From NCBI GenBank assembly GCA_009838525.1, contig VXRJ01000035.1, positions 207,475 to 271,474 of the forward strand: a DNA stretch of 64,000 nt, read 5' to 3'. This stretch comes from Acidobacteriota bacterium (lineage in GTDB: Bacteria > Acidobacteriota > Vicinamibacteria > Vicinamibacterales > UBA8438). Position 1 is the stretch's first letter; the number at the start of each line of letters is the position of its first letter. A model generated the notes under the pieces. That model had not been told where the DNA came from. It ran no database searches and saw only the letters and a list, made by a program, of their open reading frames with translations. Both the position numbers and the translations under genes were made by a program. Below, in pieces: positions 16,791 to 37,479 of this stretch.

Positions 16791-17402
16791 GTGACGCGTA
16801 TCGTCGCCTGGGTTCAGGCCTTCGCACTCGGCATCGGGGGGCCGGGCCTCTTCCTGGTCGCCTTCCTCGACTCGTCGTTCCTGTCGCTCCCCGAGATCAA
16901 CGACCTGCTGGTCGTGCTGCTCGTCGTGGGGCACCCGGAACGGATGCCCTTCTACGCTCTGATGGCGACGCTCGGCTCGGTTACGGGCTGCCTGGTGTTG
17001 TATTCCATCGGCAAGCGCGGGGGCGAGGCGCTGGTCCGCCGGCGATTCAGCGGGCCGCGGGTCGAACGGGCGCTCGAATTGTCGCGGCGGTACGGCGTGC
17101 TGGCGATCGCCGTGCCGTCGATCCTGCCGCCCCCCGCGCCGTTCAAGATCTTCGTCCTCCTGGCGGGGGTGGCCGCCGTCCCCGTCTGGAAGTTCACGGT
17201 GACGCTCGCGGTGGCGCGGGGATTCCGCTATCTGACTGTGGGCGTCCTCTCGATTCTGTACGGCGAGGAGGCGATCGGGTTCATCGAAGAGAACGGCCGC
17301 GCTGTCGCCCTGGCGATCGCGGTCCTGATTGTCGTGGGCGCGGCGGGCTGGCTGCTCTGGCGCCGGCGGACGCAGAACGCGGCGCGCGCCGGCCACCTAT
17401 AA
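16791..17402 (+). CDS. DedA/VTT-family inner-membrane protein
   Basis: 203 residues with four to five hydrophobic segments. Features of the DedA/SNARE-associated (VTT) family: an amphipathic N-terminal region (GGPGLFLVAFLDSSFLSLPEIND), the central PSILPPPAPFKIFVLLAGVAAV segment, and a C-terminal TM helix followed by WRRRTQN. DedA proteins are thought to be lipid scramblases or proton-dependent transporters of lipid carriers; the family role here would be membrane homeostasis or undecaprenyl/dolichol-type lipid handling, matching the glycosyltransferase next door. GTG start chosen from the TATAAT box just upstream and the signal-less hydrophobic start. Its stop codon is part of the -10 box of the next gene. 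Confidence 0.8.
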   Translation: MTRIVAWVQAFALGIGGPGLFLVAFLDSSFLSLPEINDLLVVLLVVGHPERMPFYALMATLGSVTGCLVLYSIGKRGGEALVRRRFSGPRVERALELSRRYGVLAIAVPSILPPPAPFKIFVLLAGVAAVPVWKFTVTLAVARGFRYLTVGVLSILYGEEAIGFIEENGRAVALAIAVLIVVGAAGWLLWRRRTQNAARAGHL

Positions 17403-32236: not shown

Positions 32237-33157
32237 ATGGGTCTCGACACGAAAGCCACGCAGTTCCTGCTGGCGGCGCGCGGTTTGGGAGTGTCTCTTG
32301 AACGCGTTGCCACCATCGGTCGCCAGCGCCTGTACGTAACCCCCGCCTGGCTGCGCGCGCGCCTGCGAGCGATCGGGATCGCCCTCGATTCCGCGGCTAC
32401 GGCCAGGTTGTTCGAAGAAGCTGACGGATTTGCCGAGCCCCTCCTCCGAATGCTCGGCGCCAGGCGGGTACTTTCTCTCGACGCCTCCGGTTACGAAGGT
32501 GCGTCGCGTGTCGCGGACTTGAACGCCAGGATCGCTCCCGACCTGGAGAGCGCATTCACGACCGTGTTCGACTCCGGCTCGCTCGAGCACGTGTTCGATT
32601 TCCCTACCGCTATCGGCAACTGCATGCGCATGGTCGCGGCCGATGGCCACTTGCTCATCGTTACTCCTGCGAACAACATGGTCGGTCACGGGTTCTATCA
32701 GTTCAGCCCCGAACTGTTCTACCGCGTCCTGGCCGAGTCGAACGGCTTCGTCATTGAACGGATGCTTGCCACCGAGTTGTCCTCTTCACGGTGGTACCAG
32801 GTGGCCGATCCCGCGGTTCTCGGCACGCGCGTGCAGTTCCGGACCTTCCGCCCGACCTACCTCTGTGTCATTGCGCGCCGCGTCGCGGTGCGCCCCGTGC
32901 TGGTCAGCCCGCCTCAGCAGAGCGACTATGTGACTCAGTGGCAGAACACCGGAAGGACGGCCCGCGGCGTTGCGGGAGCGGACTTGCATCCGCTGGACAG
33001 GTACTTGCCCCACTGGTTGGCCACGGTCACGAAGAGCTGCGGGCACCTGGGGCAAGTGTTGCTGCGCCCCTTCGGTCCCAAGGCGTTCAAGCGCGTGGAT
33101 ATCGCTCGACTGGCAACCAGCGACGGCACTACGCCTCCTTCCGGCAGAACGCCATGA
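32237..33157 (+). CDS. Methyltransferase-like protein of glycan loci
   Basis: 306 residues. The core RVLSLDASGYEGASRVADLNARIAPDLE...FTTVFDSGSLEHVFDFPTAIGNCMRMV...HLLIVTPANNMVGHGFYQFSPELFYRVL follows the SAM methyltransferase order but motif I is not the usual ExGxGxG, being LDASGYEGA. That variant is typical of a group found in polysaccharide clusters, so SAM binding is likely but not shown. C-terminal ~80 residues (LHPLDRYLPHWL) are unassigned. The 3' end overlaps the convergent methyltransferase gene at 33129 by 29 bp. Confidence 0.68.
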   Translation: MGLDTKATQFLLAARGLGVSLERVATIGRQRLYVTPAWLRARLRAIGIALDSAATARLFEEADGFAEPLLRMLGARRVLSLDASGYEGASRVADLNARIAPDLESAFTTVFDSGSLEHVFDFPTAIGNCMRMVAADGHLLIVTPANNMVGHGFYQFSPELFYRVLAESNGFVIERMLATELSSSRWYQVADPAVLGTRVQFRTFRPTYLCVIARRVAVRPVLVSPPQQSDYVTQWQNTGRTARGVAGADLHPLDRYLPHWLATVTKSCGHLGQVLLRPFGPKAFKRVDIARLATSDGTTPPSGRTP

Positions 33158-33923
33158 GGTGCCAGCCGAGCGGCCGTACGAGGCTGCGGGGCAGCGCGTT
33201 GAAGGTCCCGACGAAGAACCGGTTGTAGACCGTTGCCTTCCAGCCCTTGTGCAGGCGTGACGGGACGGGAAAGCGTTCCGGGACGATCCGCACCTCGGCG
33301 AACGGATCGAGGAGGCGGCGGAACTCGCCGATTGTGAACATTCGAAGGGCGGGCGCGTCCGCATGCTCGAGGGCGGTGCCGGTCAGCGCCGACATCACAC
33401 CGAGCCACGACCACCGGTTGTAGACCATCATGATGGCTTCGCCGCCCGGCCGGAGCACGCGGTGGGCCTCGCGTATCAGGCAGGCCGGATCCGCCGTGTA
33501 CTGCACGACCCCGTGGGCGTAGACGACGTCGAACGACGCGTCCTCGAACGGAAGCGCTTCGCCGTCAGCCACCTCGAGTGCGTCGGCAACGACATCATGC
33601 AGCTCGACATTGCGCCGCGCCAGGTCGATTGCCTGCTGTGCCAGGTCGACTCCGGTCATCCGCGCGCCGCCCCGTGCGAAGCGGACCAGGTCGGTGCCGA
33701 TGCCGCAGCCGATCTCCAGCACCCGCCGGTCGCGGTAGCCGTCGAAGTCGACCAGTCGTGGGAGGTACCGCAGCTTGTCGAAGCGGTAGTCGTCGAGGTC
33801 GTTGAAGAACCCGAGCGTGCCGGGCGACGCCTCGCTCATTTCCTGATCGTGGATCCGGCCGTTCCAGTACGCGCGGATTCGCTCGATAGGTGGAGGACTG
33901 GGGGGCTCGGGAGAGGCGATCAC
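33129..33923 (-). CDS. Class I SAM-dependent methyltransferase
   Basis: 264 residues. VLEIGCGIGTDLVRFARGG (motif I), GVDLAQQAIDLARRN, DGEALPFEDASFDVVYAHGVVQYTADP and LRPGGEAIMMVYNRWSW are classic Methyltransf_11 elements; the C-terminal part (EFRRLLDPFAEVRI, RFFVGTFNALPRSL) is longer than in minimal enzymes. Substrate unknown. GTG start with TATACT 9 nt upstream. Shares a 20-bp divergent promoter region with the GlpD-like gene. Confidence 0.82.
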   Translation of the reverse strand: MIASPEPPSPPPIERIRAYWNGRIHDQEMSEASPGTLGFFNDLDDYRFDKLRYLPRLVDFDGYRDRRVLEIGCGIGTDLVRFARGGARMTGVDLAQQAIDLARRNVELHDVVADALEVADGEALPFEDASFDVVYAHGVVQYTADPACLIREAHRVLRPGGEAIMMVYNRWSWLGVMSALTGTALEHADAPALRMFTIGEFRRLLDPFAEVRIVPERFPVPSRLHKGWKATVYNRFFVGTFNALPRSLVRPLGWHLMAFCRKEA

Positions 33924-33931
33924 GCGGGGGG

Positions 33932-33938
33932 TAGTATA
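33932..33938. promoter_or_regulatory. Overlapping divergent -10 boxes (TAGTAT / TATACT) in a 20-bp gap
   Basis: The plus strand reads TAGTAT (33932-33937), 6 nt before GTG 33944; the minus strand reads TATACT (33938-33933), 9 nt before GTG 33923. Both genes start within 20 bp of each other, so both are probably leaderless and use one near-palindromic -10 core. Confidence 0.55.
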
Positions 33939-33943
33939 CGGGC

Positions 33944-35581
33944 GTGCAACGCGACCTGGCCGCGCTGACGGCGCGCGAGTTCGACCTGCTCGTCGTCGGC
34001 GGCGGGGTCTACGGCGCGTTTGCCTTCTGGGACGCGACGCTGCGCGGACTGTCGGCGGCGTTGATCGATCGGGGCGACATCGGTTCCGGCACTTCGTTCA
34101 ACAGCGCGAAGACGATACATAGCGGCGTCCGCGTGCTGCAGAGCGGCAACCTGGTCCTGCTGCGCCGGTTCGCGCGCGAGCGGCGCGCGCTGATGCGAAT
34201 CGCTCCGCATCTTGTCCGGCCGCTCCCCTTCGTGCTGCCCGCCGGCGGCGGGATTACCGGGCACCGCCTGCTGCTCCGCGCCTACTTCGCGCTCAGCGAT
34301 CGGCTGACGCGCGGGATGAACGACGGCGGCCCCGAAGATCCGGCCTCGCGCCTCCCTCCGAGCCGCCTGCTGTCGCGCGACGAGTGTCTCCGGCTCAATC
34401 CGCTGATCGATCCGGGCCGCGTTGCCGGAGGAATCGAGTGGTTCGACGGCCAGATGCGCAACGGTGACAGGCTGCATTTCTCGGCCGTTGCCTCCGCCGT
34501 GGAGCGGGGCGCCGTGGCGGCGAACTACGTCGAGGCGGACGGTGCGCTGAGGCGCGGGGAAGACGTTGCCGGCGTGCACGTCATCGATCGCCTGACCGGC
34601 GACCGGTTCGAAATCCGCGCTCGCGTTGTGCTCAACGCGGCCGGGCCGTGGGCGCCTGGCCTCAATGGCCGTCTGGCCGACGGCGCATCCGGCGCGCTGC
34701 ATCCGCGGCTGTCGAAAGCGATGAATCTGGTGATTGGCTCGCCGCTCCGGGGGACGCATGCCGTGGCCGGATCCGCGCGCGGCCGGTTGTTCTTCGTGGC
34801 GCCGTGGCGGGAAGTCGCCATAGTCGGGACCAGCCATGACCGGCACGCTGGCGGTCCCGGCGCGCTGGCGCTCGAACGGACGGAGATTGACCGGTTCATC
34901 GACGACGTGCGCGAAGCCTTCCCGGCGCTGCCCCTCCGGATCGATGACGTTCGCCTGGTGCACCGCGGCCTGTTGCCGGCGGCGCCCGGCGGGGATGGCT
35001 TGCAACTGGCGACGGCAAGTGCGGTGATCGATCACCGTCGGGACGCCATTCACGGGCTGGTCAGCCTGCTCGGCGTCCGGTACACCACGGCGCGCGAGAC
35101 GGCCGAACGGGCGGTCGACGCGGTCGTCGATCAGGTGGGTCGCACCGTCGAACCCTGCCGCACGGCGACGACCCCGCTCGCCGGCGGCGACATTCCGGAC
35201 GTCGACGCGTTCGTGCGCGACGCCGCCGCGGAGGGGGAGGGCGCGGAGCCGGCCGAACTGCGCCGCCGCCTGGCGCGCACGTATGGCACGCGCTACGAAG
35301 CACTGGCGGCGGAGTTGTCGGCATCGCCGGAGGCGCGTGCGCCGCTCAGTCCCACGTGCGCCGTCACCGTCGGCGAGGTGCGTCACGCCGTCCGCGAGGA
35401 GATGGCGTTGCGGCTCTCGGATGTCCTGCTGCGGAGGACGGAAGCGGGATCGGCGGGCGATCCGGGAGACGAGGCGGTCGCGGCCGCCGCGCGAGTCATG
35501 GCTGGCGAGCTGGCGTGGACTCCGGCGCAGGTGGAGCGCGAAGTCACGGACCTGCGTCGCGTCTATCAGCTTCCCGACTGA
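33944..35581 (+). CDS. FAD-dependent oxidoreductase, glycerol-3-phosphate dehydrogenase (GlpD/GlpA)-like
   Basis: 545 residues. FAD-binding FDLLVVGGGVYGAF (13-26), IDRGDIGSGTSFNSAKTIHSGVRVLQ (the GlpD SxNSxKxxHGG-like segment), then WFDGQMRN, VLNAAGPWAPG, KAMNLVIGS and LLGVRYTTARETAERAVD, all in the order of the GlpD/GlpA family. The C-terminal helical part (TPAQVEREVTDLRRVY) matches the DAO_C domain. It would oxidise sn-glycerol-3-phosphate to DHAP at the membrane face and pass electrons to quinone, but the N-terminal HGG is HSG, and a relative acting on another glycerol-type sugar is possible. The 3' end overlaps the convergent asnB-like gene by 16 bp. Confidence 0.75.
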   Translation: MQRDLAALTAREFDLLVVGGGVYGAFAFWDATLRGLSAALIDRGDIGSGTSFNSAKTIHSGVRVLQSGNLVLLRRFARERRALMRIAPHLVRPLPFVLPAGGGITGHRLLLRAYFALSDRLTRGMNDGGPEDPASRLPPSRLLSRDECLRLNPLIDPGRVAGGIEWFDGQMRNGDRLHFSAVASAVERGAVAANYVEADGALRRGEDVAGVHVIDRLTGDRFEIRARVVLNAAGPWAPGLNGRLADGASGALHPRLSKAMNLVIGSPLRGTHAVAGSARGRLFFVAPWREVAIVGTSHDRHAGGPGALALERTEIDRFIDDVREAFPALPLRIDDVRLVHRGLLPAAPGGDGLQLATASAVIDHRRDAIHGLVSLLGVRYTTARETAERAVDAVVDQVGRTVEPCRTATTPLAGGDIPDVDAFVRDAAAEGEGAEPAELRRRLARTYGTRYEALAAELSASPEARAPLSPTCAVTVGEVRHAVREEMALRLSDVLLRRTEAGSAGDPGDEAVAAAARVMAGELAWTPAQVEREVTDLRRVYQLPD

Positions 35582-37479
35582 GGCGGATCGATCGTCGCCT
35601 GCGCCCAGCGCTCTAGCACCATCAGGCTGAACAGCAGGTGAGCGTGGTTCTCGCGCCCCGCGGTGTGTTCCGCGATCCTGCCGGCGACCGCCCCCGGCTC
35701 GATCCAGCCTCGGCGGGCGAGCCGTTCCGGCGACAGCAGATCGTGCATCAACGGCGCGAGCTCCCGCTTCAGCCAGTTCTTCATCGGGATGCTGAAGCCC
35801 TCCTTCGGCCGGCGCAGAATGGAAGCGGGCAGCCGATCCGCGAACGCGCGCTTCAGGATGAACTTCCGCTCCGCGCCGCGCACCTTCAGGTGGCCCGGCA
35901 TCGACCCGGCCAGCTCGAGCACCTCCGTATCGAGGAACGGCGCGCGCGTTTCGAGCGAAGCCGCCATGCTCATGCGGTCGACCTTTACCAGAATGTCGTC
36001 GGACAGGAAGATCCGAAGGTCGGTGTAGAGCTGCCGGTTCAGGAGGTCGCCGCCGCCGAACGCGCCGAGCGCGTCGCGCACCGGGCGGTACGACTCCGCG
36101 CCGGCAAGCGCGTCACGAAGTGCCGGGGTGTACAGGGTTCGCTTGGCTTCCGGCGAAACGTACGTCATCCAGCGGTAGTGCCCGATGTCGGCCGGCGCGT
36201 CCGCGATACCGGCCGTGAACCGCTTCAGCTTGTTCACCAGGCCCTTCTTCTGTTCGCGCGGAGGCAGGTGGGCCGCCGCTGCGGCAATCGCGCGCAGTGC
36301 GCCGTCCGGCGCGACTGCCGCGAGACGTCGGGCCAGGCGATCCGCGGCGTAGGTGTCGTAGCCGCCGAACAGCTCGTCTCCGCCGTCGCCCGAAAGCGCC
36401 ACCGTCACGTGCTCGCGCGCGATGGTCGAGATCAGATACGTGGGGAAGAGCGAGACGTCGGCGAAGGGCTCGTCGAGGTGGACGATCAACTGATCGAACA
36501 GCGCCGCGATGTCAGGCTGGACCATCCCTTCCCGGTGATGCGTGCCGAATCGCTCCGCAATCAGCCGGGCATGCGGCAACTCGTTGTAGCTGCCATCGGC
36601 AAAGCCCATGCTGAAGGTGTTGACCGGGCTGTTGGTCCGCTGGGCCGCCTCGCGCATGCAGGCTACCACCACGCTCGAGTCGATGCCGCCCGATAGAAAC
36701 GCCCCGAGCGGGACGTCCGACATCATCTGGCGCTCGACGGCCCGTTCCAGGGTCTCGCGCAGGGCCGCGGCCGCGTCGTCGTCGCTCCAGTTGCGGGGCG
36801 CGATCGCGGCGGCGTCCCAGTACGGGGCAATCTTGAGTTCGCCCGCGCGCCAGGTGAGTGCGTGAGCGGCGGGCAGCCGCCGGATCGCGGCGAAGATCGT
36901 GCGGGGCGATGGGACGTACTCGTAGGTCAGGAACTGATCCAGCGCTTCGAGATCCACCTCGCGCGAGACGTCCGGACAGGCGAGCAGCGCCTTGATCTCG
37001 GACGCGATCACCAGGCCGTCCGGGGTCTCGGCATAGTAGAGCGGCTTCTCGCCCGCCCGGTCGCGCGCCGCCCACAGCGTCCCGGCGCGAGCGTCCCAGA
37101 GCGCGATGGCGAACATGCCGTGGATTCGCTCCAGGCAGTTTGTCCCCCACGCCTCGTAGGCGTGCAGCACCGCTTCGATGTCGCTGCTGCTCCGGAACAC
37201 ATGGCCGTGCGCGACGAGGTCGGCGCGGAGTTCCGCGTGGTTGTAGATCTCCCCGTTTCCGACCAGGTGGACCGTGCCGTCCTCGTTCGTGAACGGTTGC
37301 CCGCCGCCGGCGACGTCGATGATTGACAGGCGGCGCATGCCGAGCCCGGCCCCCGGCAACGCGACCTGACCGGCGTCGTCCGGCCCGCGGTGGCGCAGTG
37401 TCGCGACCATCGCGGCCAGGCGGTCCGCCGGCGTGGGGCGTTCCGGGTCGCGGGCGACGATGCCGGCAATGCCGCACAT
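35566..37479 (-). CDS. Asparagine synthetase B-type glutamine amidotransferase
   Basis: 637 residues. Cys2 (MCGIAGIV) is the glutaminase nucleophile; RRLSIIDVAGGGQPF and GNGEIYNHAELR belong to the class II amidotransferase domain (1-~200). The synthetase domain has the PP-loop LSGGIDSSVV and SGDGGDELFGGYDTYAADRLAR (ATP/Asp site), and the C-terminal FSIPMKNWL. It matches AsnB and equally the amidotransferases of exopolysaccharide loci that amidate sugar acids. Its place among glycan genes, with no other amino acid genes, makes the second reading attractive. The lipoprotein gene at 37550 is divergent, 70 bp away. Confidence 0.85.
   Translation of the reverse strand: MCGIAGIVARDPERPTPADRLAAMVATLRHRGPDDAGQVALPGAGLGMRRLSIIDVAGGGQPFTNEDGTVHLVGNGEIYNHAELRADLVAHGHVFRSSSDIEAVLHAYEAWGTNCLERIHGMFAIALWDARAGTLWAARDRAGEKPLYYAETPDGLVIASEIKALLACPDVSREVDLEALDQFLTYEYVPSPRTIFAAIRRLPAAHALTWRAGELKIAPYWDAAAIAPRNWSDDDAAAALRETLERAVERQMMSDVPLGAFLSGGIDSSVVVACMREAAQRTNSPVNTFSMGFADGSYNELPHARLIAERFGTHHREGMVQPDIAALFDQLIVHLDEPFADVSLFPTYLISTIAREHVTVALSGDGGDELFGGYDTYAADRLARRLAAVAPDGALRAIAAAAAHLPPREQKKGLVNKLKRFTAGIADAPADIGHYRWMTYVSPEAKRTLYTPALRDALAGAESYRPVRDALGAFGGGDLLNRQLYTDLRIFLSDDILVKVDRMSMAASLETRAPFLDTEVLELAGSMPGHLKVRGAERKFILKRAFADRLPASILRRPKEGFSIPMKNWLKRELAPLMHDLLSPERLARRGWIEPGAVAGRIAEHTAGRENHAHLLFSLMVLERWAQATIDPPQSGS

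Follow-up and report, generated by a model that had tools for sequence, protein, structure and literature searches.

Bacterial bidirectional promoters are known mainly from transcription start-site maps, in which much of the divergent transcription could be a by-product, and examples with symmetric −10 elements were reportedly described by Warman et al. (Nat Microbiol, 2021). In the available portions of two reports (PMC12825309, PMC10268837), a TANNNTA word superimposes −11A and −7T of the two strands and places the two starts 18 bp apart, the commonest bidirectional geometry, and offsets of +1 and −4 between the hexamers, i.e. start-site spacings of 18 and 23 bp, are given as common. The first-pass annotation of the present locus had noted reports of bidirectional −10 symmetry in other bacteria. 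A second described class comprises TA-led leaderless genes, found in 3/3 Acidobacteria genomes and in a mean of 13.3% of genes according to the accessible part of the survey of Zheng et al. (2011; PMC3160421), with TANNNT about 12 bp (counted from its first T) ahead of the start codon. Divergent genes with overlapping promoters, one of them giving a leaderless transcript, are also described for lysG-lysE of Mycobacterium tuberculosis (PMC5648196, in its available text).

We analysed the 20-bp gap between a methyltransferase gene (MT) and a GlpD-like gene located in the window, i.e. the whole 64,000-nucleotide stretch of DNA under study. This gap is quite likely to form one bidirectional promoter of the housekeeping sigma factor, yielding two leaderless or nearly leaderless mRNAs. 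It resembles the symmetric −10 promoters in its reciprocal −11A/−7T, its 18-bp or 23-bp spacings and its two mRNAs from one site (here predicted), and differs from what the available portions of those reports describe in the predicted absence or near-absence of a leader on both mRNAs. With the TA-led genes it shares a TANNNT ahead of the start codon, although that survey, as far as its accessible part goes, classes genes singly, whereas one element would here serve two opposite-strand starts. Unlike the MT/GlpD gap, lysG-lysE is described with a 108-bp gap, a regulator-bound inverted repeat, a regulator as one of the genes and a leaderless start from a second promoter.

The divergent gene pair and its intergenic gap

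The features of the locus are as follows (window coordinates):

33923 to 33129, minus strand: MT gene, class I SAM-dependent methyltransferase, GTG start at 33923
33944 to 35581, plus strand: GlpD-like FAD-dependent oxidoreductase gene (DAO and DAO_C), GTG start at 33944
33924 to 33943, no strand: intergenic gap of 20 bp between both GTG codons, holding the putative shared promoter core
33932 to 33937, plus strand: TAGTAT, proposed −10 of the GlpD-like gene, ending 6 nt before its GTG, predicted +1 on 33944
33933 to 33938, minus strand: TATACT, proposed −10 of MT, ending 9 nt before its GTG, predicted +1 at about 33926 to 33923
33932 to 33938, no strand: TAGTATA (TANNNTA), symmetric unit with −11A/−7T of the two strands base-paired, 18-bp geometry

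The two GTG codons are indeed 20 bp apart, on the plus strand from 33944 and on the minus strand from 33923, and Pfam matches show that both reading frames are genuine and that the gene labels given in the first-pass annotation are correct, MT matching Methyltransf_11 (E 2.5e-23) and its neighbour DAO (E 4.8e-33) and DAO_C (E 1.3e-22). In NCBIfam the latter protein comes close to glycerol-3-phosphate dehydrogenase without reaching any curated cut-off (at best 194 bits vs 352), so that the label goes no further than "GlpD-like". The scanned start region contains no in-frame ATG, GTG or TTG besides the two GTGs for either gene. The next in-frame MT start is an ATG at about codon 29; as this later start would cut off the invariant residues Y19 W20 and I24 H25 D26, there is good support for the GTG start at 33923. 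At its 3′ end, MT (minus strand) overlaps by 29 bp (33129-33157) the 3′ end of a convergent plus-strand ORF (32237-33157), which has no Pfam or NCBIfam match. On the other side, an asparagine-synthase-like amidotransferase gene (35566-37479, minus strand) converges on the GlpD-like gene, the 3′ ends of the two overlapping by 16 bp; its best NCBIfam model is the XrtA/PEP-CTERM amidotransferase (611 bits vs a cut-off of 816.9).

The gap reads gcggggggtagtatacgggc, and its sole AT-rich word is TAGTATAC (33932-33939). TAGTAT and TATACT do overlap within it, being read at 33932-33937 and as the complement of 33933-33938; the two hexamers share bases with an offset of +1 and reciprocal −11A/−7T, and the distance from the first T of TANNNT to the GTG is 12 nt for the GlpD-like gene and 15 nt for MT. 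The 20 bp contain no Shine-Dalgarno sequence. Assuming a −10 element at −12 to −7, the rightward start is predicted at 33944, the first base (G) of the GlpD-like GTG. The ideal minus-strand +1 (33926) is a C, where a purine is preferred; C being a poor initiator, a start at 33925 or 33923 (G) is equally likely, which would give MT a leader of 0-3 nt. Of the leaderless starts proposed for both genes, the one of the GlpD-like gene is thus predicted to be exactly so and that of MT nearly so, as the comparison presented below also suggests.

Taken by itself, the window is compatible with simpler readings. A one-way promoter might drive only the GlpD-like gene, the minus-strand match being a by-product of the A+T content and symmetry of −10 elements and MT being read weakly or from elsewhere; this would fit the GlpD-like box 6 nt before its GTG with a purine at +1, against a 9-nt spacing and a C at the ideal +1 on the minus strand. 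An AT-rich word might also have fallen into a short gap by chance, with no shared function. The window contains a single copy of TAGTATAC (0.02 expected from shuffles) and the whole genome four sites, i.e. five matches (one site being palindromic); as a reversed-pattern control word also gives five, the octamer as such is not enriched, in keeping with chance. What exceeds chance is the conservation among relatives.

Conservation of the element among orthologous gaps

GlpD homologues were found in 41 of the 60 related genomes searched, and MT adjoins GlpD in 27 of 30 fetched GlpD loci (own locus included), the other three having no neighbouring MT. A genome-collection search with the MT alignment provided a further 80 loci, assigned by name to Acidobacteria/Vicinamibacterales, KSB1, Chloroflexi/Anaerolineae and others. 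Over these 110 loci, MT and the GlpD-like gene are divergent in 81 and co-directional in 16, and one partner is missing from the examined stretch in 13. The 81 divergent loci reduce to 65 distinct gaps. The divergent pair is found in one Acidobacteriota group of the tree (Vicinamibacterales and related lineages): in an MT protein tree of 89 rows (65 distinct divergent, 16 co-directional and 8 without GlpD, leaving aside 16 near-identical divergent rows as well as L052 and L091, which had no GlpD match), a branch of 100% SH-aLRT sets the divergent rows apart, L056 being the one co-directional exception, and the divergent orientation needs 2 changes vs 21.3 with shuffled labels. The 16 co-directional pairs all come from the 80 MT-search loci, and nine of them are operon-like, with 6-32 bp from the MT stop to the GlpD anchor (L062, L068, L070, L087, L094, L106, L108, L112 and L113, from KSB1, Chloroflexi/Anaerolineae and unassigned MAGs), indicating that MT and the GlpD-like gene are coupled elsewhere too. 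A piece of AsnB was also observed in 55 of the 110 loci, KSB1 and Chloroflexi among them, and on this basis MT, GlpD-like and AsnB-like genes may constitute an ancient unit of three genes.

The 65 gaps were compared with 300 dinucleotide shuffles. Start codons were assigned by rule, as the one nearest to the aligned first residue for GlpD and, for MT, as the one nearest to the gap and ≥14 nt from the GlpD start, so single starts may be misplaced. Overlapping TANNNT on the two strands occur in 56/65 gaps (shuffles: mean 14.3, maximum 23). At a distance of 5-10 nt, TANNNT precedes the GlpD start in 43/65 (mean 6.6, maximum 14), the MT start in 43/65 (mean 7.9, maximum 16) and both starts in 23/65 (mean 1.7, maximum 5). 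The symmetric TANNNTA is kept in 55 of the 65 gaps, and its frequency holds with increasing divergence: 47/57 below 90% MT identity (shuffle mean 4.7), 30/35 below 80% (3.3), 20/23 below 75% (2.3) and 10/11 representatives below 70% (300 shuffles: mean 1.2, maximum 5). Such conservation of position and symmetry over deep divergence refutes chance for the family of orthologous gaps, notably through the overlapping TANNNT and the most divergent representatives, and leaves it hardly credible for the window. Among the ten gaps devoid of TANNNTA, L089 and L093 lack any TANNNT at 5-10 nt; in a few gaps (L101, L104), the box is apparently split into two separate boxes.

A palindromic word lying between divergent genes is frequently an operator, and the overlapping promoters of lysG/lysE are accompanied by a LysG-bound inverted repeat in the available text on that locus (PMC5648196); the core could similarly be the operator of a transcription factor, with the promoter secondary. 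However, the fixed part is only TA...TA, the middle triplet existing in 15 forms (TATCGTA, TACTATA, TACAATA, TAGAATA, TATTATA, TAGTATA and nine more), as would be expected for two −10 boxes and not for an operator. Moreover, no further arm is conserved on both sides, the pair includes no regulator gene, and the same TANNNT lies 6-9 nt before many unrelated genes. We consequently rejected the operator on account of these freely varying middle letters, and regard it as very improbable.

The one-way reading was confronted with a test in which symmetry was not selected, the sole criterion for picking a TANNNT being its distance of 6-9 nt from one start. The following base is an A, giving TANNNTA, in 26/42 cases on the GlpD side and 34/42 on the MT side (9/10 and 3/4, respectively, among representatives below 70% MT identity). 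In controls, this A was found in 7/47 other leaderless-like promoters on the 400 kb of the own contig analysed (C35; 49 less the two of the MT/GlpD pair) and in 4/33 in relatives. The symmetry can thus arise by chance in about 14% of other leaderless-like promoters (11/80), which leaves some room for a single direction in the window, but not in the orthologues, where the symmetric word is so widely kept. Upstream of MT, 42/65 gaps have a TANNNT at 6-9 nt from the start, with a usual spacing of 8 nt (24/42), and outside the GlpD-like coding region there is no room for another MT promoter. A one-way promoter therefore appears improbable, and the comparison upholds the proposed sharing of a symmetric −10 by both genes, with predicted leaderless or nearly leaderless starts.

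Start-site geometry and the −35 question

One 18-type unit lies 5-10 nt from both starts in 6/65 gaps, the window among them, and a 23-type unit (offset −4, e.g. TATCGTACAAT) is present in 15/65. In the other gaps, an 18-type unit is close to a single start (31/65) or lies elsewhere (3/65), a 23-type unit is close to one start (1/65), or there is no symmetric unit of either type (9/65). As only these 6 and 15 gaps have a well-placed unit, one gene would have a longer leader in the remaining ones. At least 11 switches of geometry are needed on the MT tree. Of the 22 gaps of 46-200 bp, 18 hold a symmetric unit next to one gene and show no TANNNT at 5-10 nt from the start of the other, as though both genes continued to share a single site. 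From this placement we infer that the box would stay two-way in long gaps, one gene being leadered, although the other gene could conceivably have its own leadered promoter of another type.

The first-pass annotation had also placed the −35 boxes, by necessity, within the opposite genes; this part was not supported, none being detectable in the window or the orthologues. With spacers of 15-19 nt, the best match to TTGACA in the window is 3/6 on both sides. Over 43 orthologous promoters per side, the mean best match equals that of shuffles (2.65 vs 2.59 on the GlpD side, 2.47 vs 2.58 on the MT side), hence no −35 signal is visible. For other leaderless promoters, values are slightly higher than in shuffles on C35 (2.73 vs 2.55, sd 0.11) and equal to them in relatives. 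A consensus promoter scan gave no site, as expected where no −35 is recognisable. Contacts inside the opposite genes may nevertheless exist without conserved sequence.

Leaderless signal in the genome and proposed mechanism

Genes were called on C35 (400 kb, 290 called genes) and on 20 stretches from relatives with a simple home-made codon-usage caller, not a standard program; one of these stretches (L147) yielded a single called gene, which makes it practically empty. On C35, TANNNT shows a peak at 6-9 nt ahead of starts; at this distance, it precedes the 5′-most start of 23 of 159 lead-type genes, and 41/510 candidate starts in the first 40 codons vs 4/1116 internal start-like codons. In relatives, it precedes 18/136 5′-most starts vs 13/2323 internal ones. 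Shine-Dalgarno-like words precede 12.6% of lead-type starts on C35 vs 6.0% of internal ones. Together with the accessible part of the published survey (PMC3160421), the TANNNT signal in C35 and relatives makes leaderless initiation plausible here.

In the mechanism that we propose, RNA polymerase would bind the symmetric TAGTATA in either orientation and, the −10 hexamers overlapping with an offset of +1, polymerases would compete, only one occupying the site at a time. Rightward initiation at 33944 would produce a leaderless mRNA of the GlpD-like oxidoreductase, and leftward initiation at about 33923-33926 an MT mRNA with a leader of 0-3 nt. The divergent arrangement would couple the expression of both genes, as the MT-GlpD operon presumably does in Chloroflexota and KSB1 relatives, and this arrangement has been kept through the divergence of Acidobacteriota lineages. 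More tentatively, and with slightly more doubt than belief, we suggest that in Acidobacteriota a single −10 unit of 7-11 bp, without −35 or room for leaders, could for a very long time have served as the entire regulatory region for two genes that form a metabolic unit. This −10 unit would replace the operon (co-directional in Chloroflexota/KSB1, divergent in Acidobacteriota) and drift between the 18-bp and 23-bp geometries, selection keeping both directions even with a longer gap and one leader.

Symmetric −10 bidirectional promoters and TA-led leaderless genes are already known kinds; what is new would be a deeply conserved and nearly double-leaderless example, with a switch between co-directional and head-to-head arrangements. 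Here the symmetric unit is traced over orthologous Acidobacteriota gene pairs, whereas the available portions of PMC12825309 and PMC10268837 report no orthologous conservation and do not contain the word "leaderless". No conserved double-leaderless bidirectional promoter was found among the titles and abstract openings surveyed in the open-licence literature. At the single MT/GlpD pair, the symmetry has been preserved by descent, in gaps too short to hold most other elements, and it persists as the gap lengthens, which provides evidence of selection for two-way use. The 65 natural gap variants also lend themselves to tests of the bases required for each direction. The case further suggests how two genes can stay co-expressed when an operon becomes a head-to-head pair, or the reverse.

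The idea that shared leaderless boxes are common across the own genome was rejected. On C35, leaderless-like boxes occur on both sides of 7/49 divergent pairs, close to the independent expectation (18/49 and 16/49 per side), and overlap in only 2/49 (2/35 in the 20 stretches from relatives), so that they do not form a dominant class on this contig. A second divergent pair of the own genome (L134, about 17010-17110; G000:C35, about 377012-377110) has overlapping leaderless-like boxes, TACTAT/TAACAT, in the 23-bp geometry, with a start 8 nt away in either direction. Its genes are, as we take them to be from their sequence, a MacB/FtsX-like permease gene and an aminotransferase-like gene. Elsewhere in this genome of 68% GC, an AT-rich stretch (L032, about 1110-1240; G000:C25) carries repeated TTAGTAT words ahead of an ATG and has the appearance of an operator or of foreign DNA.
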